A DNA stretch of 19,651 bases, from positions 1 through 19,651 of the forward strand of contig JAUQXG010000494.1 of the NCBI GenBank assembly GCA_030834765.1, in the 5' to 3' direction. Positions 1,435-15,669 of this stretch are shown here, piece by piece. Under the pieces are notes generated by a model. It made no database searches, was not told the origin of the DNA, and saw only the letters and a list, made by a program, of their open reading frames with translations. How positions within the stretch are numbered: position 1 is the first letter of the stretch; each line of letters starts with the position of its first letter. Source of the stretch: Lutispora sp. (lineage in GTDB: Bacteria > Bacillota > Clostridia > Lutisporales > Lutisporaceae). A program made the position numbers and the translations under genes.

Positions 1435-1824
1435 TTATTTATAGTACTGAAAGCTTCCGTTAAAAGTAGAGCTTGTATCAACCTGAATGTTATAACGGAA
1501 AGTACCGATGCGTAAGCTGGAAGATTGAAAGGTTACGCCTACAGTTTTATTAGCTACTAACCCTCCAGACTTTTGTTCAACCGAATTCCAGCTGCCATCA
1601 GGATTTTGGCGCTGCAAGTATATGGTATATGTTCTGTAAAATGATGACGGATTAAAATATAAGTTCAATAAAGGCTGCCCTTCATTGTAAAAGGATTCAG
1701 AATTATAATTTCTAGTAGCTGTTGCATTAATAGTACCTGTATACCAGCTTCCTGCATAGCAAATCACAGGCATAGCAGCAATTATTAGTATTAGAACCAA
1801 AAACAACACTTTCTTTTTCTTCAT
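1435..1824 (-). CDS. Small secreted protein (129 aa), unknown function, in agrD1 operon
   Basis: A clear signal peptide: MKKKK, a hydrophobic stretch (VLFLVLILIIAAMPVI), then CYA|GS as the probable cleavage site after residue 24. The mature ~105 residues are rich in Ser, Thr, Asn, Tyr and aromatic residues and alternate polar and hydrophobic positions, which suggests an extracellular beta-sandwich. There is no Cys in the mature part and no family I recognise. Start supported by AGAGAGG upstream. It follows agrD1 by 96 nt on the same strand with no clear terminator between, so it is probably co-transcribed and quorum-controlled. By position it parallels the 202-aa secreted protein that follows agrD2. 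It could be an antimicrobial, an adhesin or a surface protein; the sequence does not decide. Confidence 0.75.
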   Translation of the reverse strand: MKKKKVLFLVLILIIAAMPVICYAGSWYTGTINATATRNYNSESFYNEGQPLLNLYFNPSSFYRTYTIYLQRQNPDGSWNSVEQKSGGLVANKTVGVTFQSSSLRIGTFRYNIQVDTSSTFNGSFQYYK

Positions 1825-1920: not shown

Positions 1921-2052
1921 CTATTGTTTAACCAGCTTTTTCGGCATCTTAGGCTGACAAAGTACCAAGTAACAACAGGTTCCAGCTCCAACATTAGCGA
2001 ACATCAAGGATAAACCTGCCAGCATATTGAGAAACTTGAACTTTCTTTTCAT
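1921..2052 (-). CDS. agrD: AgrD-like cyclic autoinducer peptide precursor, copy 1 (43 aa)
   Basis: A 43-residue peptide with the three-part AgrD layout: a basic, amphipathic N-terminus (MKRKFKFLNMLAGLSLMFAN), a core GAGTCCYLVLC, and a charged tail QPKMPKKLVKQ. Aligned with the well-known S. aureus AgrD-I (TCDFIM followed by DEVEVPKEL), the predicted thiolactone ring is Cys27-Tyr-Leu-Val-Leu31, with AgrB cutting after Leu31. Cysteines directly before (26) and after (32) the ring are unusual. RBS GGAGG lies eight bases before the ATG. It sits under an agr-type promoter at 2144-2206. The gene has no agrB next to it, only an agrB fossil that overlaps its start. Identity as a cyclic-peptide precursor is confident; ring chemistry is inferred. 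Confidence 0.9.
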   Translation of the reverse strand: MKRKFKFLNMLAGLSLMFANVGAGTCCYLVLCQPKMPKKLVKQ

Positions 2053-2111
2053 TGTGTACCCTCCTTCCTATCTTTCTTTATTCGCATAAACTTTGACACT
2101 GCAGTTGTCAA
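2049..2111 (-). pseudogene. Fossil of the agrB 3' end in front of agrD1
   Basis: Read from 2111, this segment translates as LTTAVSKFMRIKKDRKEGTQ and a stop TGA that overlaps the agrD1 ATG (ATGA). The intact AgrB of this window ends LTDAVAKLIYIKVREKEAQ. The match in sequence, length and stop position shows the last ~20 codons of a deleted agrB. The same bases contain a perfect 15-bp inverted repeat (2084-2098 with 2106-2120, loop CTGCAGT), which could fold in the agrD1 leader. Confidence 0.8.
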
Positions 2112-2143
2112 AGTTTATGCCAAGGATTATTATCCTTAATTGG

Positions 2144-2206
2144 AATATATCAGATACTTGTCCTATTTGGAATGCCCTATGCATAAGTGGTCGATGAAAT
2201 GTCATT
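2144..2206 (-). promoter_or_regulatory. LytTR-type (AgrA) promoter of agrD1
   Basis: Minus strand: CATTTCATCG, half-site ACCACTTAT (2191-2183), 12-bp spacer, half-site CCAAATAGG (2170-2162), then 12 bp to an extended -10 TGATATATT (2152-2144). The second half-site covers the -35 position, where no good -35 hexamer exists, as expected for an activator-dependent promoter. The 9+12+9 geometry is that of LytTR-domain regulators such as AgrA. The same arrangement with identical spacing occurs at 5148, 6844 and 15565. Confidence 0.8.
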
Positions 2207-2209
2207 TTT

Positions 2210-2250
2210 GGCATAGAAATAAGAAAACGATGCTAATTTGCATCGTTTTC
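2210..2250 (-). terminator. Terminator of the agrAC operon
   Basis: A perfect 11-bp stem (2240-2250 with 2223-2233, loop 2234-2239) on the minus strand is followed by TTATTTC. It overlaps the agrC stop codon, so transcription of the kinase ends just before the agrD1 promoter box. Confidence 0.8.
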
Positions 2251-3555
2251 TATAGGAATTGCTATATTGACTTTAAATTCTTCACCTAAATCTTCTACTT
2301 CAATTATTCCATTTAATTTTTTTACAACCTTTTTTACATTAGCCAAGCCAAAGCCGTGATTATCTATATCTTCCTTTTTTGTTTTAAATCCTTTTTTCGC
2401 TATGCTGTATTCTTCACTGCTCTTGTTATTATTAATTTTGATTATCAAATATTGATTTCTTATATGCATTTCCATTGATATTTTTCTTATGGCCTTAGAT
2501 AGCTTGTCACATGCTTCTAATGCATTATCCAGTAAATTCCCTAGTATTATGGACAAATCTATTGGTTCAATAGACAATTCACGTGGTAAATTCATGTTTA
2601 ATGATATTTCTATGTCTTCCTTTTTCCCTCTGGCTAATTTGGTATTTAATATAGAAGCAACTACAGGTTCTTCAATGTTTATATAATAGTTAAACTTCTC
2701 TCTATTCTTAGTCAATAAATCTATATATGACAATGCTTCTTCCATCTTTCCCATATGTAAAAGTCCATATAGGCACCCAACATGATGATTAAAGTCATGC
2801 CTCTCTGCTTTCATCTGCTTCAACATTTCCTCTATGCTGCTGGTATAAAATTTTTGTCTTTCAAACGCTCTTTCCTTTGCTCTCCACACTGCCTCTTTAT
2901 TTATTTGATCAGACATTTTCTTGATTATAGTGGAAACATTGACACTGAAAAGAATAGCACCTAAGGACATAAAGATTAAGTATCTTATCTCATGTCCTTT
3001 TAAAATGTAAGTATATTTATAAAACCATAGTGCCAAAAAACCTATGAGAATGTTAAAGGATATAATAATCATTATCTGATATCTAATGGTGGTATCAAAC
3101 TTTAAATCTTTGACTATTCTTTTCTTAAAAATAAGCAAAACCAATACGTATAATGCCTTAGCTACTATTATTGCAATCATTCTGTGTGTATTCAGCTTAT
3201 AGTATATATTTGGAGCCAGCTTTGTAATTATCACTATCATTCCCATTGATAATAGCTCGGTAATGAGCATAAGCACGATACCCATAGCACAATAAAAATA
3301 TGTTTTCATAGATTCCCATCTAAATGTTAAATGTAATATAAAACCTGTAGACAAAAGCATGATGATTAATCCCATAAGGCTTCCGATTCCAAAGTAAATG
3401 TTAGCAATAGAATTTATTGTAGCTTGAATGATTACAGCTATAAACACCTTTAAAAACTTAATCCTTGTTTCTCTCATCATCATGTAAGTAAATGCAAATA
3501 AAAGTGTTGCATCAATCATATTTACAAAGAATTCTATAATATGCCAACCACTCAT
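2233..3555 (-). CDS. agrC: AgrC-like sensor histidine kinase
   Basis: About 440 residues. The N-terminal half has six to seven membrane segments (to about residue 215), the usual peptide-sensing module of AgrC/ComD/FsrC kinases. A short coiled linker follows, then the phosphoacceptor box RHDFNHH (His is residue 259 counted from the upstream ATG at 3573). The HATPase part carries NLLDNALEAC (N box) and HGFGLANV (G box), the pattern of the HPK10 group. I prefer the ATG at 3555 because GGAGGG lies eight bases upstream. The ATG at 3573 has no ribosome binding site and would overlap the agrA stop. It is expected to bind the cyclic peptide outside the cell and phosphorylate AgrA. The gene follows agrA by 14 nt and shares its transcript. 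Confidence 0.93.
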   Translation of the reverse strand: MSGWHIIEFFVNMIDATLLFAFTYMMMRETRIKFLKVFIAVIIQATINSIANIYFGIGSLMGLIIMLLSTGFILHLTFRWESMKTYFYCAMGIVLMLITELLSMGMIVIITKLAPNIYYKLNTHRMIAIIVAKALYVLVLLIFKKRIVKDLKFDTTIRYQIMIIISFNILIGFLALWFYKYTYILKGHEIRYLIFMSLGAILFSVNVSTIIKKMSDQINKEAVWRAKERAFERQKFYTSSIEEMLKQMKAERHDFNHHVGCLYGLLHMGKMEEALSYIDLLTKNREKFNYYINIEEPVVASILNTKLARGKKEDIEISLNMNLPRELSIEPIDLSIILGNLLDNALEACDKLSKAIRKISMEMHIRNQYLIIKINNNKSSEEYSIAKKGFKTKKEDIDNHGFGLANVKKVVKKLNGIIEVEDLGEEFKVNIAIPIENDAN

Positions 3556-3569
3556 TTTATTACCCTCCA

Positions 3570-4292
3570 TCATTCAAATAAGCTATCTTCAAAAATCTTT
3601 TTCACAAGCTTTTTGCATCTGCGGCTTACAGGTATAATAGTATCTGTATGATGTAATAATAATTCATCCCCCTGTAGCCCCTTTATCATATGCTTATTTA
3701 CTATATATCCTTGATGGCAATGTAGGAAATATTGTGTATCTAAGTTATGAATTAAATCTTTAAAATTTCCATAATACCCGTATTCTTCAATTGCTGTGAC
3801 AACAATTATTTTTCTGAATAATTTCTCAAAATAAATGATATCTTTATATTTTAAATTTATCTCTGCGCTTTTACTTCTTATAGTAAATACATGACAATTC
3901 TCTTCATACAGTTTAATTTGATCAATCCTTATGATTATATCTTCCATTATCTTATTAAAGCGCTCTATAGTAATTGGTTTTATAATGTAATCCAAAGACT
4001 TGACTTCAAAGGCATCTAGTGCATAATCTTTATATCCTGTTATGTACACCAAGACAACATCCTTAAATCTTTGTCTAATTTCCATACCCGTATCTATTCC
4101 ATTTAAATCTTTCATCTCTATGTCAAGAAATACTATATCTGGGTTGATTTTATCAATTTTGAGTAGAAGTTCTTCACCGCTTGATGCAGCTATAATATTA
4201 AATTCATATTCGCTTTTTGCAGAATGAATAAAACAAGATAGTAAATCTATTTGTACAACATCATCATCACACACAAATATGTTCAGCCCCAT
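3570..4292 (-). CDS. agrA: AgrA-like response regulator (receiver + LytTR DNA-binding domain)
   Basis: A 240-residue protein of standard AgrA length. The receiver domain (1-125) has the acidic pair Asp9/Asp10, the phosphoacceptor Asp57 in FLDIEM, Thr85 and Lys105 (IIKP). Residues ~145-235 form a LytTR domain (CHVFTIRSKSAEINLKYKDIIYFEK through FLHCHQGYIVNKHMIKGL to PVSRRCKKLVKK). LytTR proteins bind paired ~9-bp sites one helical repeat apart. Four such pairs in this window sit before agrD1, agrB, agrD2 and the bacteriocin operon. Start at ATG 4292 after a G-rich ribosome binding site. It comes first in a two-gene operon with agrC and has its own promoter, lacking the LytTR box. Confidence 0.94.
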   Translation of the reverse strand: MGLNIFVCDDDVVQIDLLSCFIHSAKSEYEFNIIAASSGEELLLKIDKINPDIVFLDIEMKDLNGIDTGMEIRQRFKDVVLVYITGYKDYALDAFEVKSLDYIIKPITIERFNKIMEDIIIRIDQIKLYEENCHVFTIRSKSAEINLKYKDIIYFEKLFRKIIVVTAIEEYGYYGNFKDLIHNLDTQYFLHCHQGYIVNKHMIKGLQGDELLLHHTDTIIPVSRRCKKLVKKIFEDSLFE

Positions 4293-4325
4293 TGCATCCC
4301 CCCTAGCAATTTCTATACTATATTA

Positions 4326-4331
4326 ATTATA
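4326..4331 (-). promoter_or_regulatory. Candidate -10 of the agrAC promoter
   Basis: On the minus strand, TATAAT preceded by TGG (extended-like) lies 34 bases before the agrA ATG. The -35 is weak (TTAGTA-like). No LytTR box is present, so basal, non-autoinduced expression of the sensor pair is likely. Confidence 0.5.
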
Positions 4332-4432
4332 CCATAAATTAACATGATACTAATCCCTATTAAAGGGGAATTTAGCAAGTTGATGCTGTATATATTGGCA
4401 TTATTATCAATAGTGAAGGTGTTGAAACAGAT

Positions 4433-4477
4433 AAAAAAAGAACCGAACAAAGCTTATTAATATTAAACTTTGTTTGG
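4433..4477 (-). terminator. Terminator downstream of agrB
   Basis: A 10-bp stem (4468-4477 with 4443-4452, one G-U pair, 15-nt loop) on the minus strand is followed by a run of seven T (4433-4439). It ends the agrB transcript right after the agrD fossil and separates agrB from agrAC. Confidence 0.8.
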
Positions 4478-4486
4478 CCTTATTTT

Positions 4487-4507
4487 TAACTTGAACTTTT
4501 CTCTTAT
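4487..4507 (-). pseudogene. Fossil of an agrD start downstream of agrB
   Basis: The agrB stop region reads CACAATAAGAGAAAAGTTCA, whereas both agrD genes begin CACAATGAAAAGAAAGTTCA (copy 1) or with one synonymous change (copy 2). The start ATG has become ATA and homology ends after about seven codons, where the terminator follows. The agrD that should follow agrB is therefore deleted here. Confidence 0.7.
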
Positions 4508-5112
4508 TGTGCCTCTTTCTCTCTAACCTTTATATATATCAACTTTGCTACTGCATCTGTCAAGGTTAAAGCCTCAAGCAATATAGAAATTACAGCTATG
4601 TTGTAGTATTTATAAAACTCAGGCTTAATTATTACTAGGACTACTACTATTAAACATTGCGTGATTATTGCATATAAGCTTCTTTTTCTGTAGATTACAA
4701 CTTCAGCTTTGCTTAGCCTTCTATTGGGATTATCAACCGGTGCATAAATTGCAACCAGTATCAAGGAAACTATTAAGCTGCAGCTTATAAGATATATACT
4801 CAAATTGCCATGGATATTTATCCCCATCCATATAGTTACAAGCATTAAAGCCACTGTCCCTATAAAGCATTTCAAATAAGTATCCAGATGCACTCCTCCT
4901 GCATTTATCCTCAATACTGAAAACGCTAATATAAAAACGATTGCTTCCTTTATCCAGCCCAGAGCTGCTGCAATTAGCATAATTCCAATTCCTTTAAGCA
5001 CAGTTGCAGTAAGAAGCTGCATCCCAAAATAATAAATATCTTGATCATCAAATTCTACAAGATTTTGTTCAACCATTCTTTGTGTAAAGCTTTTTGCGAT
5101 ACTATCAATCAT
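4504..5112 (-). CDS. agrB: AgrB-like membrane peptidase that matures AgrD
   Basis: A 202-residue membrane protein with five to six hydrophobic segments. The AgrB signature LRINAGGVHLDTYLKCF holds the catalytic pair His75 and Cys82, with conserved Arg68 and the GG before the His. The downstream motif APVDNPNRRLS is also typical. AgrB cuts the charged tail off AgrD and forms the thiolactone ring during export. It is the only agrB in the window, so it would have to process both agrD products in trans. AGAGGTGAT supports the ATG at 5112. Its promoter at 5148-5210 carries the same LytTR box as the agrD genes. Unusually, no agrD follows it; only a 7-codon fossil and a terminator do. Confidence 0.95.
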   Translation of the reverse strand: MIDSIAKSFTQRMVEQNLVEFDDQDIYYFGMQLLTATVLKGIGIMLIAAALGWIKEAIVFILAFSVLRINAGGVHLDTYLKCFIGTVALMLVTIWMGINIHGNLSIYLISCSLIVSLILVAIYAPVDNPNRRLSKAEVVIYRKRSLYAIITQCLIVVVLVIIKPEFYKYYNIAVISILLEALTLTDAVAKLIYIKVREKEAQ

Positions 5113-5147
5113 ATATAATCACCTCTTCAATTAGTATCCTTAGTTGG

Positions 5148-5210
5148 AATATAGCAGATACTTGTCCTATTTAAAATGCCATATGCATATGTGGTCGATG
5201 AAATGTCATT
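5148..5210 (-). promoter_or_regulatory. LytTR-type (AgrA) promoter of agrB
   Basis: Minus strand: CATTTCATCG, half-site ACCACATAT (5195-5187), 12-bp spacer, half-site TTAAATAGG (5174-5166), 12 bp, then extended -10 TGCTATATT ending at 5148. Transcription should start near 5141, leaving a leader of about 29 nt before the agrB ATG. This copy also has a TGTCA-TTTT-TGACA inverted repeat at its upstream edge. Confidence 0.8.
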
Positions 5211-5294
5211 TTTGACATTATACACTTCTATAACTTCAAATCTATATAACCAAAAACCTATTAGGAAGGTAGGTCGCAAATAGAGGGGTAATAT

Positions 5295-5495
5295 ATGAAA
5301 AAGATAATATTTAATAGAATTACTTTTGTATGCATGTTCGTGTTGTCCGTCATATGGGTAATCAATATCGTAGCATCTCATAATATCTATCACATGATTC
5401 TTCAACGCTCTATGGGAATTCTTGTGGGCCCTATACAAGGTTTCATAACAGGATCGATAATAAATATATCGACTGCCATATTAAAACAATTGTGA
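5295..5495 (+). CDS. Small membrane protein (66 aa), unknown
   Basis: Unrecognised. The peptide starts MKKIIFNR, then a membrane segment (residues ~9-27), a short loop, and a second weaker hydrophobic segment (~40-62) rich in Gly, Ile and Ser. AGGGG six bases before the ATG supports translation, and a strong terminator follows the stop. It is divergent from agrB; the agrB promoter lies in the intergenic region. The opposite strand also has an open frame here, but without a ribosome binding site. Small basic membrane proteins next to bacteriocin or agr loci are sometimes immunity proteins; that is only a guess here. Confidence 0.6.
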   Translation: MKKIIFNRITFVCMFVLSVIWVINIVASHNIYHMILQRSMGILVGPIQGFITGSIINISTAILKQL

Positions 5496-5510
5496 AGTTG
5501 GTTATAGGTG

Positions 5511-5568
5511 ATATGAGGTTGAAGGCTGTAAAATAATTAACAGTCTTCAACCTCATATTTGTTTTTTA
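5511..5568 (+). terminator. Strong terminator after the 66-aa gene
   Basis: A 19-bp stem (5511-5529 with 5540-5558, one G-U pair, 10-nt loop) is followed by TTTGTTTTTT. It also separates this gene from the coding relic on the opposite strand. Confidence 0.88.
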
Positions 5569-5617
5569 TAAGTTCTCAAACTCTTTTACTAAGGAAATTT
5601 AAAGCCTGAGTCATCTT

Positions 5618-5781
5618 TTATATACTTAAGTTACCATTAGGGCCACACGTTATGCTTTGATATGCATAAGCATCTGTAACAAGCAGCTCTTTACCTTCTT
5701 GTTTCCATATAATACAGTAATCACTTTAAAAAATGCTTCATGGCTATCACCTATTGATTGATAATCTGATTTATCAATCAA
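5618..5781 (-). pseudogene. Frameshifted coding relic
   Basis: Two adjoining frames on the minus strand read like one broken protein tail: SDYQSIGDSHEAFFKVITVL, then after a one-base shift WKQEGKELLVTDAYAYQSIT and CGPNGNLSI with a stop at 5618-5620. There is no good start or ribosome binding site. The family is not recognised. The 5' edge overlaps an 11-bp inverted repeat (5754-5764 with 5771-5781). Confidence 0.45.
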
Positions 5782-5807
5782 ATTATATTAGAGAATAATA
5801 GTAATGA

Positions 5808-5933
5808 TTATTTATTTGGTTTATCCTTGGTTTTACCTATATACTTTACTACAAAATAAATTATACTACCTAACACCGCTATGTTGAATATAACAAATAA
5901 AAAAAGGCCACCATTAAAATTCAGGTCTGTCAT
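5808..5933 (-). CDS. Small single-span membrane protein (41 aa)
   Basis: ATG at 5933 preceded by GGTGGTGATTCT. The product reads MTDLNFNGG, one hydrophobic helix (LFLFVIFNIAVLGSIIYFVV, residues ~10-29), then a basic tail KYIGKTKDKPNK. It begins 27 nt after the stop of the 202-aa secreted-protein gene on the same strand, so it is probably third in the agrD2 transcript. Function unknown; a single-span peptide with a cationic tail could be a toxin-like or immunity peptide, or a membrane anchor. Confidence 0.6.
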   Translation of the reverse strand: MTDLNFNGGLFLFVIFNIAVLGSIIYFVVKYIGKTKDKPNK

Positions 5934-5960
5934 AGAATCACCACCATATTCAATATAATT

Positions 5961-6569
5961 CTACATATCTCCAACGATAAAGGTTTGATTAAAATTATAG
6001 GGTCTCTGATATACTTTTAGCACTCCCTCAATTAGCAAATAGTAATCGACCGTCCCTTTAGCTTTTAAAGTAACACTTGTATTAGTATAAGTTGATTTTG
6101 GTGGGAATGCTTCTGTATAATCCAATCCTAAACTAAATCCTTCCATAATCATATATGCATCACTACAACTTGTTACTATCTTTTTGTTTGGTGTCACAAG
6201 TATCTCCACATCAGCTGCCACATAAAACGAACCTACTACCCAAGTTTCTCCTTTTTTTACTGTTATCTCTTTAGTATATGGGTCTGTCGCTGCTACTTTC
6301 ATTCCTTTGTCACTTTTATTCAGCTCTAATTTGACATAATCAGAATTGTCGCTACTTTTAGATTGAGATACATTATTTAAAAAATTTTCTAATTCTCCTA
6401 TATTAGTAAACTCAATAGGTTGTATTCCTTTTGGTATAGTTGTAACATTTTTTAATTTAAATTCATTAGACAATTCTTTAAGTTTATCATTATCATCAGC
6501 ATTTGTTAAAATAATGTTTGACATTATAGTAAGAATCAAGATAAAGGAAATTACAAATCCTCTTTTCAA
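5961..6569 (-). CDS. Secreted protein (202 aa), unknown function, in agrD2 operon
   Basis: An in-frame ATG lies at 6626, inside the end of agrD2. I choose the TTG at 6569 because GAGGAG lies nine bases upstream and the protein then begins directly with a signal peptide: KRG, a hydrophobic stretch (FVISFILILTIMSNIILT), and NA|DD after residue 24. The mature part opens with an acidic and basic helix, then IPKGIQPIEF and a short ELENFL helix, a Ser/Asp-rich linker, and a C-terminal domain of alternating beta-like segments. One Cys is present in the mature part (TSCSDAY). I do not recognise a family. It starts 48 nt after the agrD2 stop and is presumably co-expressed under the quorum promoter at 6844, as the 129-aa protein is with agrD1. 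Confidence 0.75.
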   Translation of the reverse strand: MKRGFVISFILILTIMSNIILTNADDNDKLKELSNEFKLKNVTTIPKGIQPIEFTNIGELENFLNNVSQSKSSDNSDYVKLELNKSDKGMKVAATDPYTKEITVKKGETWVVGSFYVAADVEILVTPNKKIVTSCSDAYMIMEGFSLGLDYTEAFPPKSTYTNTSVTLKAKGTVDYYLLIEGVLKVYQRPYNFNQTFIVGDM

Positions 6570-6616
6570 TTTAATACACTCCTCTGTTTTTTCATTATAA
6601 TCTTTGCTCGCCAGAT

Positions 6617-6754
6617 TTATTCCCATCTGCCTTTTAACTTCTCCGGCATCTTAGGCTGACAAAGTACCAAATAGCAACAGGTTCCAGCTCCAATATTAGC
6701 GAACATCAAAGATAAACCTGCCAGCATATTGAGAAACTTGAATTTTCTTTTCAT
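6617..6754 (-). CDS. agrD: AgrD-like cyclic autoinducer peptide precursor, copy 2 (45 aa)
   Basis: The first 37 residues equal copy 1 except Ile for Val at residue 21; the core GTCCYLVLC and QPKMP are unchanged. The tail differs: EKLKGRWE instead of KKLVKQ. Most base differences from copy 1 in the shared part are synonymous, so the peptide has been kept by selection since duplication. Both copies should yield the same ring (Cys27 to Leu31). The RBS and its spacing are identical to copy 1. The promoter is the LytTR box at 6844-6906, and no agrB is adjacent. Confidence 0.9.
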   Translation of the reverse strand: MKRKFKFLNMLAGLSLMFANIGAGTCCYLVLCQPKMPEKLKGRWE

Positions 6755-6809
6755 TGTGTACCCTCCTTCCTATCTTTCTTTGTGTAAGCTTTGATACTGC
6801 AGCGGTCAA
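6752..6809 (-). pseudogene. Fossil of the agrB 3' end in front of agrD2
   Basis: From 6809 the minus strand reads TTGACCGCTGCAGTATCAAA, giving LTAAVSKL, against LTDAVAKL at the end of the intact AgrB. A one-base shift follows, after which the frame runs through the agrD2 start. As with agrD1, the bulk of agrB is missing between the promoter and this remnant. Confidence 0.7.
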
Positions 6810-6843
6810 AATCAAATCTTCAGGAATTATTATCCTTAACTGG

Positions 6844-6906
6844 AATATATCAGATACTCGTCCTATTTGGAATGGCTTTTACATAAGTGGTCGATGAAAT
6901 GTCATT
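6844..6906 (-). promoter_or_regulatory. LytTR-type (AgrA) promoter of agrD2
   Basis: Minus strand: CATTTCATCG, half-site ACCACTTAT (6891-6883), 12-bp spacer, half-site CCAAATAGG (6870-6862), 12 bp, extended -10 TGATATATT (6852-6844). Both half-sites are identical to those of the agrD1 promoter. Confidence 0.8.
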
Positions 6907-7543
6907 TTGTGTGTTATAAATCTCTATATTTTGAAAGCTATACATGGTAAAATAATTAATATAATACATATTCATAAAAAATTGGCTTAATTAATTAGAT
7001 GCTCATACATTGTAGTTTAATAGGCGATTGAGAAACCATATAAATTTTTAGGAAATAATTTCTACATGTTAAAAAAAAAGAATGTCACAGCAAAGATCAC
7101 AGCCTTTAGAGATTGAAATGTATATGAATGAGCATCAATAGCATAATTATTCTTAAAGAGACATCTGCAATTTCTAAGTAAAGAATCAAAGAATTTGGAA
7201 TTATTCACTTGAATATAAGGCTCAACGTCTAAACGATAGAGATATTTGTTTACAGATAGATTCAGTTAGACCAACAAAATCTTGCTTAGTCCTAAACAAA
7301 TCGAGCTGAATGAGAGACTTTAGGGAAATTACATGGTGCTCTAAGCTCAGAGAATAAAGAAAGAATGTTGACAAGAAGAGTAATCTCGCTAATGCATAAT
7401 ATCTTCTGACTAAGCAAAAAACAGGGCATAGAAGAAAGTTTGTAATCTCTAAGATTATCTGTATGTTTATTGTAATGGCTGATGAATGATTTTATTTGAT
7501 TACACATACAATATTTTACAAACAGTGAGGAGGGGGAGCCCAA
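6907..7543. other. Long stretch without a recognisable gene
   Basis: No supported gene. The minus strand holds an 83-codon open frame (from 7543) and an overlapping shifted frame of similar length. They contain alternating Leu/Phe-rich segments that might be the residue of a degraded coding sequence, for example a transposase. There is no ribosome binding site or recognisable motif. The last 30 bases carry the strong ribosome binding site of the next plus-strand gene. Confidence 0.35.
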
Positions 7544-8319: not shown

Positions 8320-8793
8320 TTACATAAGCCTGGCCTCTATTATTGCGGCTATTAATAACAGCCCCAAAGCTGCTCCAAACACCCTAAAAAGTTTATACTT
8401 GTCAATGTTCATATCTTTATTATTGTATTTATGCCAGACAAACCAGATCGGTATCAACCCGATAGAAGCAATTAGAATTGTACCTGCAATTTCAAAAACT
8501 CCATGAGGTAAAATTTTTGTGACAATCATATAAATACTGCCTTTTGACATGGTTATTCCTAATATAATGCCGTTATAAATCAAGTAAAGAATAGTTATTA
8601 TACCAAATGATAAGAGTCCTAACAGTGAGACACAATTTGAAATAATATTATGGATCAATAAATCCTTAGCCGATATCTTCATAACTTCATTCCCAAACCA
8701 TTGCATGTCAATCAGCTGTCTTGAAAGTATCATACCAAAGATGATTGAACTCACATAAATTACAGTACTTGAAATAACACTCTTTTTAATCAT
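8320..8793 (-). CDS. SpoIIM/DUF95-family membrane protein of the circular bacteriocin cluster
   Basis: A 157-residue protein with five or so membrane helices. The DUF95 hallmarks are present: N-x-x-x-x-x-x-G in HNIISNCVSLLG, YNGIILG, and PHGVFEI. Members of this family (As-48C, CclC and relatives) occur in nearly all known circular bacteriocin clusters and are needed for production or immunity; their exact role is not settled. Here it is the last intact gene of the operon, about 68 nt after the permease, instead of next to the precursor as in some clusters. The alternative, sporulation protein SpoIIM, is unlikely given the context and the small size. Confidence 0.85.
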   Translation of the reverse strand: MIKKSVISSTVIYVSSIIFGMILSRQLIDMQWFGNEVMKISAKDLLIHNIISNCVSLLGLLSFGIITILYLIYNGIILGITMSKGSIYMIVTKILPHGVFEIAGTILIASIGLIPIWFVWHKYNNKDMNIDKYKLFRVFGAALGLLLIAAIIEARLM

Positions 8794-8861
8794 ATTACTC
8801 CTCTCAATTCGTCATTATGCTTTTCTGCTTAGTAAATAATTGTTCATAATATTACTCTTTA

Positions 8862-10058
8862 TTAGTCATATCTGAGAGCCTCAATAGGATCAAGCTCGGC
8901 AGCTTTGTTAGCCGGATAAATTCCGAACCCGATTCCAACCATAGCTGAGAATGAAACTGCAATTAATACAATCCAAACTGGTACAACAGGACTAGCCTTT
9001 AGCAGTATAGCTATTATGTTGGATATACTCAGCCCTATAAAGACTCCCATAATTCCTCCAATAGCAGATATTATCATTGATTCTGTCAGGAACTGAAGTA
9101 CTATATCACTCCTGCTTGCTCCTAGTGCCTTTCTGATACCTATCTCTTTTGTTCTTTCTGTAACTGAAACAAGCATAATATTCATAATGCCAATTCCTCC
9201 AACCAATAAAGAAATACCCGCAACTATGCTTATTCCAGTAGATATGGTGCCTAAAATATTATTGATAAGCTCTATCTGATTTTTTGCCGTTTCTGCTATA
9301 TATAAATTCTCTTTCCCTTTTATTCTTGCTATGAACTTTATGATTTTTTTACTCATCAGGTTGGTTTCACTATCTTTGGATATTTGAAGCTGTAGCTGAT
9401 CATATTCATTATCATTATTTGAAAATACTATAGGAATATAAACAGATGTGCTTTTACTGAATATCGAATCAAATAATTGAGGCTTCTTTTCATATATCCC
9501 TATTATTGTGAAACTTTGTTTCAAATTCGTACTTTCTACTTTAAGTGTCTCTCCAACAACATTTACTCTTTTAAATAATTTAAGTGCTAGTTTTTTATCT
9601 ATTACGCTCACACTTCTTCTTTTATCAAGATCAGATTGATTTAGGAATCTACCCTTGATAACATTCACTTTTTCTAAAGCTTTATAATCAGGGTTTACCC
9701 CCATCATTATCACATCACCCGACTCTTTTTTCTTTACAGCCTTCCCCATATCTCCCATTAGAACAGGTGACATATATGTAATTTCATTTTTGAAAACATT
9801 TCTAATTTTGTTAATGTCACTATCAGTCAAAAAATCCTTCTTCACACTATTGCTTGTCCAGTTCAAATAAATGCCTACTTTGTTGGCCCCGACTCCTTCA
9901 AACTGCTTACTAATATTAGATTTTCCAATCTCGCCTAATGTCATTATTGTAATAACTGCACTAATACCAATAATTATACCCAGCATCGTCAGAAATGTTC
10001 TTACTTTATTGGATTTTAGGCTTGCAACAGCTATCATAAAATTCTCTAATAAAAACAA
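8862..10058 (-). CDS. MacB/FtsX-type ABC transporter permease (bacteriocin immunity/export)
   Basis: About 398 residues with the MacB plan: one N-terminal membrane helix (TFLTMLGIIIGISAVITIMT), a ~240-residue extracellular domain, and three C-terminal helices with the FtsX signature (GGIGIMNIMLVSVTERTKEIGIRKALGA). The TTG at 10058 is chosen since GGAGG lies seven bases before it; the longer frame to 10109 overlaps the upstream ATPase and has no better site. Together with the ATPase (10103) and adaptor (10790) it forms the three-part transporter that in enterocin AS-48 is encoded by as-48FGH and contributes to immunity and secretion. Confidence 0.88.
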   Translation of the reverse strand: MFLLENFMIAVASLKSNKVRTFLTMLGIIIGISAVITIMTLGEIGKSNISKQFEGVGANKVGIYLNWTSNSVKKDFLTDSDINKIRNVFKNEITYMSPVLMGDMGKAVKKKESGDVIMMGVNPDYKALEKVNVIKGRFLNQSDLDKRRSVSVIDKKLALKLFKRVNVVGETLKVESTNLKQSFTIIGIYEKKPQLFDSIFSKSTSVYIPIVFSNNDNEYDQLQLQISKDSETNLMSKKIIKFIARIKGKENLYIAETAKNQIELINNILGTISTGISIVAGISLLVGGIGIMNIMLVSVTERTKEIGIRKALGASRSDIVLQFLTESMIISAIGGIMGVFIGLSISNIIAILLKASPVVPVWIVLIAVSFSAMVGIGFGIYPANKAAELDPIEALRYD

Positions 10059-10102
10059 TTTAAAACCTCCAAAATCCAGGCTGTATATATCATGTAAATA
10101 TA

Positions 10103-10786
10103 TTAGCAACTTGTAAGCTTATCCTGCACTAATTCACCATCTTTAAATATTATTGTCCTTTTGCATTTTTGGGTTATTTCCAATTCATGTGTTACTATTA
10201 TTACTGTTACACCTTCATCATTTAACTTTTTTAAAATATTCATAATATCGCTACCTGACTTTGAATCAAGATTACCGGTTGGTTCATCAGCAAGTATTAT
10301 TGAAGGCTCATTTGTTAATGCTCTTGCAATTGCTACTCTTTGAGTTTGTCCTCCTGACATTTCATTGGGCATATGATTAACCCTATCAGATAATCCAACC
10401 TTTTCTAAGAGTTCTAATGCCCTTTCCCTTCTTTGATTTTTTGTTTTTCTGGCATAAAAGAGGGGAAGTTCAACATTTTTTAAAGCACTTACTCTCGGAA
10501 TAAGATTAAATGACTGAAACACAAATCCAATCCTTGAATTTCTTAATTTAGAAAGTTCCTTCTCAGTCCTTTCCTGTATAGATACTCCATCTAAAATATA
10601 TTCTCCAAATGTTAACTTATCCAAGCAGCCTAGAATATTCATAAATGTAGACTTTCCTGAGCCAGAAGGACCTGTTATAGCGACAAATTCTCCTTCTTTT
10701 ATACTAAGTGAAACATTTTTTAAAGCTTGCACCTCATTTTCTCCGCGATAATATATTTTGTACAAATTCTTAACCTCTATCATCAT
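10103..10786 (-). CDS. MacB/LolD-type ABC transporter ATPase
   Basis: A 227-residue nucleotide-binding protein with all motifs intact: Walker A GPSGSGKST (39-47), Q-loop Gln91, signature MSGGQ (143-147), Walker B IILADEP with catalytic Glu (163-169), and H-loop His200. The NLDSKSG D-loop is characteristic of the MacB/LolD subgroup. The start (ATG 10786) lies 3 nt after the adaptor stop. It pairs with the permease at 8862 and the adaptor at 10790, matching the As-48F/G/H arrangement. Confidence 0.93.
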   Translation of the reverse strand: MMIEVKNLYKIYYRGENEVQALKNVSLSIKEGEFVAITGPSGSGKSTFMNILGCLDKLTFGEYILDGVSIQERTEKELSKLRNSRIGFVFQSFNLIPRVSALKNVELPLFYARKTKNQRRERALELLEKVGLSDRVNHMPNEMSGGQTQRVAIARALTNEPSIILADEPTGNLDSKSGSDIMNILKKLNDEGVTVIIVTHELEITQKCKRTIIFKDGELVQDKLTSC

Positions 10787-10789
10787 GTA

Positions 10790-12046
10790 TTACTCCGCAT
10801 ATTCATCTATATTTACTTTCATTCCGTCTGAATAAGTCTCATCCGGATTGAGTACTACTTTATCACCGACCTTAATGCCATCAGCTATTATCTGAACCAA
10901 TAGATCACTTTCTACTCCCAGTTCTACGGGTATTTCCTTAAGCATGCCGCTATCAACTAAAAAAACACAATTTGTTTTATCTACTTTTTCATATATTGCT
11001 TCATAAGGAAGAACCAGTACCTCATTTTCTATTTGGGTTTCAATCTTTGACTCGATTGTCAATCCAGGTCTTAATCCTGCAATATCTCCAGTTAATTCTA
11101 CCTCTACAGGAATCACAATTTGTTTACCTGATGCAGCATTCTGTTCGACTTGTGCTGTAGGATATATATTTGTTATTTTTCCTTCAAAAGTCTTGTTCTG
11201 AATAGATTCAGTTGTTAATTCGACAGTTCTACCTATTTTCAATTGGCTGATATCAAATTCGTTTATATAAAATGTTGCCTTTAGCTTTGATAAATCCTCA
11301 ATGATAAATAAGCCTTCTGTACCTTTGGGCATTGATCCGATTCTTGCATTGACGGCAGTAATAGTTCCGTCTATAGGACTTACAACTGTTGATTTGCTTA
11401 TATTTTCTATCTTCTGTGTTAAATTTATTTTTTTTAATTCTAATGCTTTTAAATCAGATTTATTATCTTTTTCTTTTATAATTTTATTTAATTCTAAGAT
11501 ATTTTTTTCCAAGCTGTTTTTAGATTTTATATATTCATCATAAGAAGTTTCTAGCTCGTCTTTGGCTACAACACCTGACTCATATAGAATCTTATTTCTT
11601 TCATATTTATTGCTTAATATTCTTACATCTATTTCCTGGTTCTCAATATCCTTCTTTAAGGATAATATATTCTCTTCGCTATTCTTTTCTTTATATTGTT
11701 CTTCTTGAATTTCAAGCTCTAATTTTGCACATTCTATATCAAAGTTTAATTCTTTAATATCAAACTTTGCTAATACCTCTCCCTTTTTAACTTTATCTCC
11801 TACTTTTACATATATATCATTAATCCTATATGAAAAATCTGATGAAATTTCTGATTTGATCTTGCTTTCCAATTTCCCCTGCACCATCATGTAGGAGCTT
11901 ATATCTTGTTTATCTACATCAATGCTTGTTACTGATAAGCCCTTTTCCATAGCAATATTCAGTTTGGTCAAAGCCAAGGTGAATAAAACTACTACAATAA
12001 AACCTATAAATATCATTGTCCATTTTTTTGACTTTCTTGCCATCAT
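10790..12046 (-). CDS. HlyD/MacA-like membrane fusion (adaptor) protein
   Basis: A 418-residue protein with a short cytoplasmic basic tail and one membrane anchor (residues ~11-30). It is followed by a split lipoyl-like hairpin (KVGDKVKKGEVLAKFD around 80-95 and VVSPIDGTITAVNARIG around 220-237) enclosing a long coiled coil rich in Glu and Lys (~95-215), then beta-barrel segments. This is the MacA/HlyD layout; in Gram-positives such proteins bridge to an FtsX-type permease. It lies directly before its ATPase. In AS-48-type clusters the equivalent (As-48F) is part of the accessory transporter that adds immunity. Confidence 0.9.
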   Translation of the reverse strand: MMARKSKKWTMIFIGFIVVVLFTLALTKLNIAMEKGLSVTSIDVDKQDISSYMMVQGKLESKIKSEISSDFSYRINDIYVKVGDKVKKGEVLAKFDIKELNFDIECAKLELEIQEEQYKEKNSEENILSLKKDIENQEIDVRILSNKYERNKILYESGVVAKDELETSYDEYIKSKNSLEKNILELNKIIKEKDNKSDLKALELKKINLTQKIENISKSTVVSPIDGTITAVNARIGSMPKGTEGLFIIEDLSKLKATFYINEFDISQLKIGRTVELTTESIQNKTFEGKITNIYPTAQVEQNAASGKQIVIPVEVELTGDIAGLRPGLTIESKIETQIENEVLVLPYEAIYEKVDKTNCVFLVDSGMLKEIPVELGVESDLLVQIIADGIKVGDKVVLNPDETYSDGMKVNIDEYAE

Positions 12047-12139
12047 AACACCACCTATTGAGTACTAAAATACCGCTCTAATATAATTCCCAGATACTTA
12101 ATTCAGTACTTTTATCCTTAAAACATCTAAATTATTCTC

Positions 12140-12766
12140 TTACATTAGACTGTCATCAATGATCTTTCCTTCATGCAATGTAATCAATCTTGTACATAAT
12201 TTATCAAGCATACTATTGATATGTGTAGTCAAAACTATAGTTCTTTGCTCTTTAATCAAGCAGCTTAAAATATCTGTTATTATTTTGATCGATGCCTTAT
12301 CTATTCCGTTGAAGGGTTCATCTAATAAAATAAATCTCGGTTTATGAATCAAAGACATTATAATGCCTAGCTTCTGCCTATTTCCTAAAGACAAGTTTTT
12401 TATCAACTCATTCTCATATTGCTTTAAACCTAATTCTTCCATCCACAGATCAATTCTTTTTTCATATCGGTTTCCATATATAGCTTTAAGCAGGTCTATC
12501 TTTTCACTAACTTTTAGCAGCTCATAAAAAAATGGAGAACTATCCATATATGATATTTTAGAAAAATCCTTGGGTTTAATTTTTTCTCCGTCAATATAAA
12601 CATGATCGTTTTTCAAAATCCCTGATATTATTTTTAACAAAGTGGTTTTTCCAGAACCGTTACTCCCAACAATTCCGATGAGCTCCCCAGCTTTTATTTT
12701 TAAGCACATATCTTTAATCTGGAAGTTTTCGTAATTATGATTTACATTTATCAGCTCTATTGTCAT
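12140..12766 (-). CDS. ABC transporter ATPase next to the bacteriocin membrane protein
   Basis: About 208 residues starting at the ATG 12766, where AAGGGG lies upstream; longer in-frame extensions run inside the preceding gene and are not credible. Walker A GSNGSGKTT (34-42), a variant signature LSLGNRQK (125-132), Walker B FILLDEP (145-151) and His182. The ATG lies 2 nt after the stop of the 518-codon membrane-protein gene, so the two are translationally coupled and likely form one transporter. This matches the B-D pair of circular bacteriocin clusters (for example CirB-CirD, As-48B-As-48D), which is thought to drive maturation and export of the circular peptide. Confidence 0.88.
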   Translation of the reverse strand: MTIELINVNHNYENFQIKDMCLKIKAGELIGIVGSNGSGKTTLLKIISGILKNDHVYIDGEKIKPKDFSKISYMDSSPFFYELLKVSEKIDLLKAIYGNRYEKRIDLWMEELGLKQYENELIKNLSLGNRQKLGIIMSLIHKPRFILLDEPFNGIDKASIKIITDILSCLIKEQRTIVLTTHINSMLDKLCTRLITLHEGKIIDDSLM

Positions 12767-12768
12767 CG

Positions 12769-14319
12769 CTATACCCCTTCCCAATTTTCCCACAGCCTTC
12801 TTAATAGCATTCCTCTGTAAAAAACAAATAAAGTTCCTGCATGCATCAACATAATTCCAAATAGAATTCCCCAAAATGCCATTGGTCCTATTTTTCCTGT
12901 AAATGCTAAAGCAAATAAAGATATACAGCAAATATAATAAATAAAAATATTAATCATTTTTAACGCAAAACCCAAAATATCATTTGCTAAGGTTCCTTCT
13001 AATTCTTCATTTTTCAAACAACCGAAATTTGGTCTGAGAGTGTTTGACATCACCGTACTAAATGAATATATTAAGCTTAGTGTTATAGCAACAGCTATGC
13101 CTATACCATAAGCAATTCCACCAAATAACAAACCTGGAATCATCAGAATTATATTCATCACTGCAAATATGATAAAATGAACTTTTATTTTCGTATTTAA
13201 GAACTTTTCCATGCTGCCGGTATTTATCAGATGCCTTACCAAAAATTTATCATTCTCTATTATTAGAACCCTTTTAACAATAGCCTCCGATAACTCACTG
13301 GCAAATATCAGGTTAAAAAACAAAATACTGCATAATGTTTTATCCAGCAAAATGTTGTCCATATTGAACAATATCCCTAATAGCATAAATGTGAATGTGG
13401 AAATGCTCTCTATCAAAATTTGAAATGTTGAATTTTCTCTGTTTAATATTAACATCTGATAATAAATAAACTTGTCCTTATATCCTATAAATTTTCTCAT
13501 AAATATGTTGTTGGTCATATTTATCTTTTTTTCATGCAATCTATCTATAATATACAGTCCTTTTAGAACCATCAATAACATAGCTGATACTATCACTACA
13601 AAAATATAGATGATTTCTGCAGTGGGTAACACCGTACTATTATGTTCTATATATTCTAAGACATTAACCTGATTCATATTATTCCAGTTTACAACCATAT
13701 ATGAAAGTATGAATGATATCCCAAATGTAACACTTATCTTAGCAAATAGCCTCACATAAAAGGAAAACTTCCTTTCAAATATGTATATATAATTGATCAG
13801 TATAAATCTTAATATGATAGGTAAGGCTATGACGACAATATACTGTAAAAAGCTTTCTAGAAGATATTTTGCAAAATGCTTATCCTCCAATATTAAAAAC
13901 AATGAAATATTCACAGATATGAATATAATAGATGATAATGATATATACTGTAAAAATGCTGAAGCTATATACTTCGAAACTATAAACCTTTTACTATAAT
14001 TTCCTGATTGCATGATAAAGCTGCTGTCTTTCCCTTTATACACTTTGTTATATGCACAATTAATATTATTAAATGATAAATATAGCAGTATCAGAATGTA
14101 TATTGATTGAACCAATAGGCTGCATTGATCTATACTGATATTATTATCAACAAGTGTCTTAAAAATGAAGTTAAATAATAAAATCAGACTTAGCAAAACA
14201 GTAATAAATCCAGACATATATATGATATAAAAAGATTTCTTAGTAATCATCGGAATGGAAAACTTAACCGAGATCCTTCTGGCCTCCAGTAATAAAAAAT
14301 AACTAATTATTTTTATCAT
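12769..14319 (-). CDS. Large multispan membrane protein of the circular bacteriocin cluster (B-type)
   Basis: About 516 residues, with roughly ten to twelve hydrophobic segments spread along the whole length and short basic loops. No soluble domain and no obvious catalytic motif. Start: ATG 14319 with AAGGG six bases upstream; an alternative TTG is two codons earlier. It overlaps the end of the 64-aa gene by 17 nt and is coupled to the ATPase downstream. Size, topology and position directly before an ATPase match the poorly understood As-48B/CirB/CclB proteins that are essential for making circular bacteriocins and have been proposed to act in circularisation or export. Assignment rests on context, not on sequence motifs. 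Confidence 0.75.
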   Translation of the reverse strand: MIKIISYFLLLEARRISVKFSIPMITKKSFYIIYMSGFITVLLSLILLFNFIFKTLVDNNISIDQCSLLVQSIYILILLYLSFNNINCAYNKVYKGKDSSFIMQSGNYSKRFIVSKYIASAFLQYISLSSIIFISVNISLFLILEDKHFAKYLLESFLQYIVVIALPIILRFILINYIYIFERKFSFYVRLFAKISVTFGISFILSYMVVNWNNMNQVNVLEYIEHNSTVLPTAEIIYIFVVIVSAMLLMVLKGLYIIDRLHEKKINMTNNIFMRKFIGYKDKFIYYQMLILNRENSTFQILIESISTFTFMLLGILFNMDNILLDKTLCSILFFNLIFASELSEAIVKRVLIIENDKFLVRHLINTGSMEKFLNTKIKVHFIIFAVMNIILMIPGLLFGGIAYGIGIAVAITLSLIYSFSTVMSNTLRPNFGCLKNEELEGTLANDILGFALKMINIFIYYICCISLFALAFTGKIGPMAFWGILFGIMLMHAGTLFVFYRGMLLRRLWENWEGV

Positions 14320-14497
14320 GGCCAACCCTTTTCAAAAACTTTATAATGGTATATACTTCTATTATATATAGTACTGCATTTGCAATGGTTGCAATCAAAA
14401 GTGCCGTACTACTAAACTTAATGTTAAACATTCTCATTATCAAATATATTGCAAGTATATTAAAAGCCAATAATAAGAATACATGTAATTTTTTCAT
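14303..14497 (-). CDS. Small basic membrane protein, candidate bacteriocin immunity protein (64 aa)
   Basis: GGGAGGG lies before the ATG at 14497. The peptide has two hydrophobic helices (residues ~4-24 and ~30-54) and a strongly basic C-terminus (KFLKRVGHDKNN). Circular bacteriocin clusters typically encode a 45-65 residue, cationic, two-helix immunity peptide close to the precursor (As-48D1, CclI, CirE). This fits in size, charge and place, lying between the precursor and the B-type gene. No direct homology could be tested, so immunity is inferred. Confidence 0.7.
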   Translation of the reverse strand: MKKLHVFLLLAFNILAIYLIMRMFNIKFSSTALLIATIANAVLYIIEVYTIIKFLKRVGHDKNN

Positions 14498-14573
14498 CGT
14501 TTTCCCTCCCGAGATTATATTTTGAAATAGTTTAGGTTCTTGATGTATGCCAAACTTAAATTATATACTAAAC

Positions 14574-14587
14574 GCATACCATACATA
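14574..14587 (-). repeat. Inverted repeat, arm downstream of the precursor gene
   Basis: Reads TATGTATGGTATGC on the minus (coding) strand, 14 bases past the precursor stop. It is the exact reverse complement, in the transcript, of the arm at 14881-14894. It can also form a local 7-bp stem (ATGTATG with CATACAT at 14543-14549). Confidence 0.7.
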
Positions 14588-14600
14588 TTTTATCTAATTT

Positions 14601-14819
14601 TTACCAACCAGCCATTATACCTGCTGCTGTTTTCTTAGCTACACCTTCTAAAACCTTTTTAATCAGGACTGTTGAGATAGCTATTCCCACACCACTGAGA
14701 ACGGCTGCAGCAATAGCTGCAACAGTAGCACCTATCATTATGTAATCAAGAACCTTATATGCAGCTGCTAATGATATACCACAAGCTGTCGCAATATAAC
14801 CTAAAAATAATCCTTTCAC
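14601..14819 (-). CDS. Circular bacteriocin precursor (72 aa)
   Basis: Starts at GTG 14819 after a near-perfect AAGGAGGTGATATC ribosome binding site. The peptide is very hydrophobic and Ala-rich, with Lys clustered at 54-55 and 62-63, and ends in Trp (AAGIMAGW). The segment ATACGISLAAAYKVLDYI (residue 10 on) follows the conserved start of circular bacteriocins: hydrophobic residue-Ala-x-x-x-Gly-Ile/Val, then a Lys/Val/Asp helix, as in amylocyclicin, enterocin NKR-5-3B and uberolysin (from memory). By that alignment the leader is MKGLFLGY and the mature peptide runs Ile9 to Trp72, 64 residues, joined head to tail, net charge about +3. A leader of five residues (cut before Leu6) is the main alternative. 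Four or five helices of saposin type are expected, acting on membranes. The single Cys13 is unusual for this class. Confidence 0.88.
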   Translation of the reverse strand: MKGLFLGYIATACGISLAAAYKVLDYIMIGATVAAIAAAVLSGVGIAISTVLIKKVLEGVAKKTAAGIMAGW

Positions 14820-14880
14820 GATATCACCTCCTTATCATAAAATAGAAGGACCTTTAACTAAACTAAAACATTATGCTCTA

Positions 14881-14894
14881 TATGTATGGTATGC
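14881..14894 (-). repeat. Inverted repeat, arm upstream of the precursor gene
   Basis: Reads GCATACCATACATA on the minus (coding) strand, three bases after the stop of the Yip1-like gene. It is exactly complementary in the transcript to the arm at 14574-14587, so the two could pair and loop out the precursor cistron. Confidence 0.7.
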
Positions 14895-14897
14895 TGT

Positions 14898-15458
14898 CTA
14901 GGCAAGAAAAAAATTTAATGATATAAAAGCTATCCATAGAACCGACATCAAAACCATAAAACTTATTCTCTCTTTATTAAGATCAAATTTATTATCAATT
15001 CTTAGCGTGTGAATCAATATTTCACAGTAAGCTATCAAATAGATTAAATTTACAATATTAAATTGAGTAATAGTTTTAAATATGCTTGAATCTATTAAAC
15101 TGGCTAATATTGCTACAAAGATATTAAGCAGCATTATATAGTTCATCATACAACTTACCTTAAAGACTGTTTTAAAGCTTACATTAAATCCCTTAAATAA
15201 TGATACTAAATAAAATATTCCCGTAAAGAATGTCATTATCAGCAAAGGAGAAAACAAACCCGACAAAGTGGCAAAAACAGGAAATATAGTTCTGTATACA
15301 GGCTCTAATTCAGCATTTCCGAATTGTCTTATCAAGCTATCCATATTAAGCTTTATAAAAATTACCGTACTTGCTACAGAGATTATTTCTTGAAAAATAA
15401 AATGCTTAAGTATTGGCTTATTTCTAATATCATAAAAAACCTCACTTGTTGGTTCCAT
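14898..15458 (-). CDS. Yip1-like multispan membrane protein, first gene of the bacteriocin operon
   Basis: A 186-residue protein with five hydrophobic helices. A short N-terminal cytoplasmic part (MEPTSEVFYDIRNKPILKH) carries the Pro-x-x-x-x-x-x-x-x-Arg/Pro-rich entry seen in bacterial Yip1-domain (DUF1282-like) proteins. The helices follow the Yip1 spacing, including a Phe-Lys-rich loop (FKGFNVSFKTVFKV). Start supported by AAGGAAG. It lies 78 nt before the precursor and directly behind the LytTR promoter at 15565. Membrane proteins of unclear role at this position are known in circular bacteriocin clusters; it could take part in maturation or self-protection. The family call is tentative. 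Confidence 0.65.
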   Translation of the reverse strand: MEPTSEVFYDIRNKPILKHFIFQEIISVASTVIFIKLNMDSLIRQFGNAELEPVYRTIFPVFATLSGLFSPLLIMTFFTGIFYLVSLFKGFNVSFKTVFKVSCMMNYIMLLNIFVAILASLIDSSIFKTITQFNIVNLIYLIAYCEILIHTLRIDNKFDLNKERISFMVLMSVLWIAFISLNFFLA

Positions 15459-15564
15459 TAAAACACTTCCTTTACCAATTAATCATTGCTGGACATATTT
15501 TTTCACTTTCATTTTACACTTCCAATGTTTTCTCCTATATAATGTTATATTTAACCTTAACTGG

Positions 15565-15627
15565 AATATAACAAATGCTTGTCCCATTTACAATACTTCA
15601 TGCATAAGTGGTCGATGAAATGTCATT
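15565..15627 (-). promoter_or_regulatory. LytTR-type (AgrA) promoter of the circular bacteriocin operon
   Basis: Minus strand: CATTTCATCG, half-site ACCACTTAT (15612-15604), 12-bp spacer, second half-site GTAAATGGG (15591-15583), 12 bp, extended -10 TGTTATATT ending at 15565. Distances equal those of the agrD1, agrB and agrD2 promoters, and the outer CATTTCATCG and first half-site are identical to the agrD ones. The leader of about 100 nt contains a possible 9-codon mini-frame (15512-15483). Confidence 0.8.
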
Positions 15628-15669
15628 TTTGGTAAAATATTTCATTTATATTACAAAATCATTATATTG

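Follow-up and report, generated by a model that had tools for sequence, protein, structure and literature searches.

In a 19,651-base contig of a Lutispora sp. draft genome (contig C363, which in its entirety is the window of this analysis) the agr genes agrB and agrD, which usually occur and are studied together in one operon, stand apart: agrB has no agrD behind it, and two agrD genes, agrD1 and agrD2, have no agrB in front. Remnants of each lost partner can still be read at the three places, all of which keep a copy of the same promoter, and the assembly holds a single AgrB. The locus is probably an agr system whose signal operon has been broken into modules, with one AgrB for both solo agrD genes. 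The draft genome comprises 3.16 Mb in 564 contigs, is 86.85% complete and belongs to the same family as the genomes of L. thermophila and L. saccharofermentans.

A split agr locus with fossils of both lost halves

The genes are transcribed from the minus strand in the order agrD2, a secreted-looking protein, agrB, a LytTR regulator, a GHKL kinase, agrD1 and a further secreted-looking protein. The parts that carry the argument are listed here.

1921..2052, minus strand: agrD1, AgrD precursor of 43 amino acids, predicted ring C27-Y-L-V-L (TIGR04223, 31.8 bits; alignment; ring boundary by analogy)
2049..2124, minus strand: remnant of the agrB 3′ end that precedes agrD1 (alignment, shuffle tests, window scan)
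2127..2210, minus strand: agr promoter copy of agrD1, box at 2187-2205 (box search, pairwise alignment)
2233..3573, minus strand: AgrC-type histidine kinase, GHKL, SpoOB-type (profile matches)
3570..4292, minus strand: AgrA-type response regulator, receiver plus LytTR (profile matches)
4488..4508, minus strand: fossil of an agrD start behind agrB, ATG now ATA at 4505-4507 (17/21 bases to agrD1, 16/21 to agrD2)
4504..5112, minus strand: agrB (PF04647, 134.9 bits; H75 and C82 at the catalytic positions)
5130..5214, minus strand: agr promoter copy of agrB, box at 5191-5209 (box search, pairwise alignment)
6617..6754, minus strand: agrD2, AgrD precursor of 45 amino acids, predicted core the same as that of agrD1 (TIGR04223, 33.7 bits)
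6755..6825, minus strand: remnant of the agrB 3′ end that precedes agrD2, frameshifted (alignment, shuffle tests, window scan)
6827..6910, minus strand: agr promoter copy of agrD2, box at 6887-6905 (box search, pairwise alignment)

Both agrD genes and agrB score above the curated cut-offs of their families in a profile search (19 bits for TIGR04223, AgrD; 23 bits for PF04647, AgrB). An alignment of eight AgrD proteins places agrD1 and agrD2 within the AgrD pattern of a ring residue, four core residues, one further residue and a [QK]-P-x-x-P tail. AgrB retains the catalytic histidine and cysteine (H75 and C82, sought with the motif G-x-H-x6-C), which in S. aureus AgrB are H77 and C84 according to the passages of PMC10196373 consulted. 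A histidine kinase and a LytTR regulator adjoin the signal genes, as in agr operons, and both score far below the Staphylococcus equivalog cut-offs (61.9 of 500 bits for AgrC, 57 of 400 for AgrA). Neither agrD follows agrB directly, the gaps between the profile matches being 2530 bases for agrD1 and 1535 bases for agrD2.

A first-pass annotation of the window had noticed that a frame in front of agrD1 mirrors the C-terminus of AgrB and ends in an ATGA overlap with agrD1. This frame (2111-2049), whose closing TGA overlaps the agrD1 ATG, lies in a fossil that stands far above chance: its DNA alignment to the end of agrB scores 34, against a maximum of 19 in 2000 dinucleotide shuffles. The corresponding text before agrD2 (6759-6809), described in the same annotation as a frameshifted AgrB tail, is indeed shifted, by a 4-base gap, and the fossil that holds it scores 32 against a shuffled maximum of 20. 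When all 14,856 stop-free 17-codon stretches of the window are scored as protein against the AgrB tail, the agrD1 and agrD2 fossils are the two best non-self matches (36 and 26), followed by one of 22. The agrD1 frame is equalled by none of 5000 shuffled peptides when compared with the AgrB tail alone, and by one of 5000 when compared with the whole of AgrB. Chance similarity of the tails, named in the annotation as one way in which its reading might fail, is ruled out by the DNA shuffles and by the scan of all window stretches.

The reciprocal loss can be read behind agrB, where an agrD start with ATG turned into ATA had been proposed and is borne out by 17 of 21 bases shared with agrD1 and 16 of 21 with agrD2. 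That level is reached by 3 of the 39,260 21-mers of the window, and the pairwise matches require that these three be agrD1, agrD2 and the stub itself. Shortly after the stub an inverted repeat followed by T's was seen by eye.

The promoter had been said to be kept at agrD1, agrB and agrD2, and so it is. Its 19-base box has four exact matches in the window, with none expected from 200 shuffles; the fourth (15608-15626) is an addition to the earlier description and stands before a run of bacteriocin-like genes. The four promoter copies are alike at 61-69 of 75 bases in pairwise comparison. Across the whole assembly two further places match the box at 3 mismatches, against a single match for the backward control. 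A PF04647 search of the assembly finds one AgrB, and no complete agrBD copy was found elsewhere in this 86.85% complete genome. Three agrD genes exceed the TIGR04223 cut-off, namely agrD1, agrD2 and one on contig C519.

Use of the modules and order of the losses

Both agrD genes are probably in use. They agree at 111 of 120 bases over the first 40 codons and differ by five silent and two replacing codon changes (V21I and K38E), with about 24 silent and about 96 replacing sites; it is these few replacing changes, together with an unchanged predicted core, that point to continued use. The ribosome site is identical (26/26) and the promoter agrees at 73 of 79 bases, while the stretch from promoter to ribosome site agrees at 37 of 52 with four gap columns (Fisher p 0.003 against the promoter, 0.0005 against agrD).

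The proposed history starts from an ancestral promoter-agrB-agrD unit that would have been duplicated. One line would have lost nearly all of agrB, from its start to about codon 178, keeping the promoter, the agrB tail, the ribosome site and agrD, and the two solo agrD loci would have arisen by copying of this deleted form or by two separate losses. The other copy would have kept agrB and lost agrD except for its first codons. The single AgrB would now process both precursors in trans to the same cyclic peptide (predicted ring C-Y-L-V-L), which the adjacent AgrC/AgrA pair would sense, activating the shared promoter at all its copies, the bacteriocin-like one included. Judged from the sequences, processing of both AgrD precursors in trans by one AgrB is the most likely arrangement, and the AgrA-type regulator may bind the shared box and activate the promoters of agrB and both agrD genes. 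The claim of the first-pass annotation that one AgrB serves two AgrD has thus gained in likelihood, from the single AgrB of the assembly and the common predicted core, with action in trans itself still something that we infer. Its claim of descent from an agrBD pair, with agrB lost in front of the agrD copies and agrD lost behind agrB, is well supported; its further statement, that the operon was copied at least twice and each copy then lost its partner, stands as regards descent and losses, and gives one of two possible orders of events.

As to the order, we prefer one agrB deletion followed by copying of the solo agrD, on the strength of the junctions. In the base-by-base alignment of the three loci that the annotation had suggested, agrD1 and agrD2 leave the promoter at the same bases and enter agrB at about the same codon, and a junction common to both favours a single deletion; the first junction bases align poorly, at 9 of 17. 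The site counts of the three-way alignment (18 shared by agrD1 and agrD2, 8 by agrD1 and agrB, 5 by agrD2 and agrB) seem to agree with this order and were dropped as proof of it after a split by region: 13 of the 18 belong to the ribosome site or the start of agrD, both needed at the agrD loci alone.

Several results weigh against the account given above. In the lead and agrB tail the site counts become 5 (agrD1 and agrD2), 7 (agrD1 and agrB) and 5 (agrD2 and agrB), so that the three scraps are about equally distant from one another there and favour neither order. The agrD1 promoter is equally close to that of agrB and that of agrD2 (69/75 each, with 64/75 between agrB and agrD2). Upstream of the box, agrB and agrD2 agree at 28 of 45 bases, against 14-19 of 45 for each of the remaining five promoter pairs (18 of 45 for agrD1 and agrB), so that the upstream flank of agrD2 is closer to agrB's than that of agrD1 is. 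The site counts and the upstream flank lend weight to the order given in the first-pass annotation, in which two rounds of agrBD copying were followed by an independent loss of agrB from each copy. It would require two deletions with nearly the same end point in agrB, next to the same promoter bases, an objection lessened by the poor alignment of the first junction bases, and we regard it as a possible but less probable course of events. The mixed promoter signals could stem from gene conversion or from a further round of copying. Drift of the scraps is also less clear in the agrB-tail part proper, where agrD1 and agrD2 agree at 22 of 28 bases (p 0.08 against the promoter, 0.04 against agrD), or at 49 of 55 when the ribosome site is added. 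A strong hairpin is a further reason to think that the scrap before agrD1 may be more than debris: within it two arms (2081-2098 and 2106-2123), 94% complementary, make up a nearly perfect inverted repeat that gives a 15-bp RNA hairpin, and the leader RNA folds with -26.7 kcal/mol (z -6.0), equalled by none of 200 shuffles. The text before agrD1 could then be a working leader, with the ATGA overlap as a coupling frame or the hairpin as a control of agrD1. The agrD2 leader has neither an in-register frame nor a stem (z -0.9, 38/200 shuffles as good), the Lutispora solo agrD genes show no such leader by eye, and debris can have gained a stem later, all of which makes a working leader quite improbable. 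The palindrome may have been perfected by template switching, and a regulatory stem is another possible origin.

The chief weakness of the trans argument is that the contig of the third agrD, C519, carries no AgrB either; in a genome of 564 contigs and this completeness a further agrB may be missing. An AgrB absent from the draft might then process agrD1 and agrD2, the AgrB of the window serving something else. This is unlikely, since the fossil tails match the window AgrB, the promoters are shared and the window AgrB has no agrD of its own. The third agrD (L013, 2070-2285, minus strand) has a different core and lies next to a sensor and its own kinase, and the end of C519 cuts a response-regulator-like frame, so the third agr system may be incomplete in the assembly. 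Five AgrB matches in L. thermophila (one of them partial, beside four agrD) indicate that the split pair of that species need not be exclusive. A looser box (at most 2 mismatches) is present in four of five genomes searched (G000, G010, G019 and G021; 14 matches against one for the backward control); no match was obtained in front of the L. thermophila agrB or in G013. That the solo agrD genes are dying, functionless copies would suit the duplication debris nearby (at 601-718, a stretch that repeats the kinase 3′ end and half a promoter box). It is very improbable, because silent changes outnumber replacing ones despite fewer silent sites, the core and ribosome site are identical, and AgrB would be left with no precursor on the contig.

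Relatives and known agr systems

The AgrB of the window is 45 and 48% identical to those of L. thermophila and L. saccharofermentans. In L. thermophila no agrD follows the agrB of this branch, which is divergent to a kinase, and a solo agrD with its own box lies 2.4 kb from agrB, divergent to a regulator. L. saccharofermentans has an intact agrBD and a solo agrD, both with boxes; the solo agrD, followed by a secreted-looking protein, is on another contig with a second regulator. No agrB tail was seen by eye in front of the Lutispora solo agrD genes. The G013 agrB of this branch likewise lacks an agrD over the approximately 330 bases left before the contig end. A region of L. thermophila (L083, 1194-1540) is a decayed copy of the solo-agrD upstream region that keeps the box and has no agrD. 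In L. saccharofermentans the box stands before agrB and the solo agrD and, as judged by eye, also before a small membrane protein encoded upstream of agrBD (L045, 7425-7882), which we take to be UviB- or holin-like.

The ancestral agrB-agrD order, for which the first-pass annotation had advised a look at related genomes, is found there: in 22 genomes of the family, 9 of 20 agrD genes over the cut-off stand directly after agrB, in one case (G019) after an agrB with an in-frame stop. Over 80 genomes, the family included, 52 agrD exceed the cut-off, 31 of them directly behind agrB and 2 directly before it; of the rest, 10 lie within 2 kb in other layouts, 2 lie farther away and 7 have no AgrB on the contig, a class that can reflect broken assemblies. 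Five agrD rows (four directly behind agrB, the fifth with no AgrB on the contig) and one AgrB row, all under the cut-off, were kept out of this census. Separation of agrB and agrD as such is therefore not rare, and since 21 of the 52 agrD are not directly behind an agrB match (some perhaps due to contig ends), methods that find agr by neighbouring genes can miss candidates. In L. thermophila agrD stands directly before agrB at two places (G010:C33, 39686-40356 and 75236-75906). The AgrD of genome G001 (L054, 3278-3403) has serine instead of the ring cysteine, so its ring is expected to be a lactone and not a thiolactone.

The window shares AgrB, AgrD, a GHKL kinase and a LytTR regulator with agrBDCA of S. 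aureus, whose order and roles are outlined in the consulted part of PMC3673130, and with clostridial agrBD. It differs from them in that agrD lies away from agrB, with two solo agrD genes under their own promoters and remnants of the partners. Two agrBD pairs within one species are already known, as stated in the same part of that source. A close parallel for an agrD outside an apparent agr operon is Clo1313_2818 of C. thermocellum, whose mature cyclic peptide was confirmed by mass spectrometry; the passages of that source consulted (PMC5322536) name no AgrB candidate, whereas in the window a likely AgrB, kinase and regulator lie within 5 kb, agrD is present in two copies and traces of the split can still be read. 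L. thermophila and L. saccharofermentans resemble the window in the related promoter box and the solo agrD, and differ in that no agrB tail precedes the solo agrD and, in L. saccharofermentans, agrBD is kept. The parts of the agr circuit are also apart in C. perfringens, where no clear kinase/regulator pair lies beside the agr locus (PMC2706048). An abstract names VirS as the receptor in that species, and agrB and agrD are, unlike here, co-transcribed. Among the matches listed from the open-licence literature, none describes an agrB/agrD split in which traces of both missing partners persist. A solo agrD as such is already known, and the novelty lies in these readable remnants.

Through its remnants the locus shows how an agrBD pair can come apart while its parts appear to be still used. 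It makes testable the question of whether AgrB can act on precursors made elsewhere, and whether their separation alters the dosage of the signal. More tentatively, and with somewhat less than even confidence, the family may possess a hub-and-cassette form of agr, in which one AgrB serves several promoter-agrD cassettes copied around the genome. If so, the cassettes would head small secreted-protein operons and boost one common signal, and the dosage of the precursor would evolve apart from the processing enzyme.

The fourth promoter copy and neighbouring genes

The shared promoter suggests a link between the split agr system and a candidate bacteriocin cluster. The features of this cluster and the secreted-looking proteins behind the agrD genes are the following.

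15561..15631, minus strand: fourth agr promoter copy, box at 15608-15626, before the bacteriocin-like genes (box search, pairwise alignment)
8320..15458, minus strand: bacteriocin-like run with a SpoIIM-type membrane protein, two ABC ATPases, HlyD and a MacB/FtsX permease (profile matches)
14601-14819, minus strand: precursor of 72 amino acids in the bacteriocin-like run (weak circular-bacteriocin likeness)
1435..1824, minus strand: secreted-looking protein of 129 amino acids behind agrD1 (signal peptide judged by eye)
5961..6626, minus strand: behind agrD2, a secreted-looking protein that probably starts further in (by-eye assessment of start and signal peptide)

The 72-residue precursor scores below the cut-offs of the uberolysin-type families (17.3 against 30.7 bits for TIGR03651 and 14.0 against 23.6 for PF09221), and the cluster is for this reason termed bacteriocin-like only. 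Its genes are a possible target of the agr promoter. None of the literature matches listed for agr together with circular bacteriocins held the phrase "circular bacteriocin".

A search of a large protein collection with the protein behind agrD1 returned only that protein itself, and a search for relatives of agrD2 returned no candidate with three 5-residue words in common. AgrB has five matches there, counting itself, the best other being 46% identical. A mobile origin of AgrB was considered and rejected, the plasmid (three records) and phage (two) matches being distant and partial, all under 60% identity and none covering 80%. No known RNA family was found in the window at gathering thresholds.

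Two further stretches of the window look like debris. By eye, the broken reading frames at 7833-8300 (minus strand) resemble a decayed gene for a secreted protein. The stretch 601-718 is a diverged copy of 2190-2308 (minus strand), which takes in the 3′ end of the kinase gene, the bases that follow and half an agr box; it is fused to the end of the frame at 644-1360, whose last residues resemble those of the kinase.

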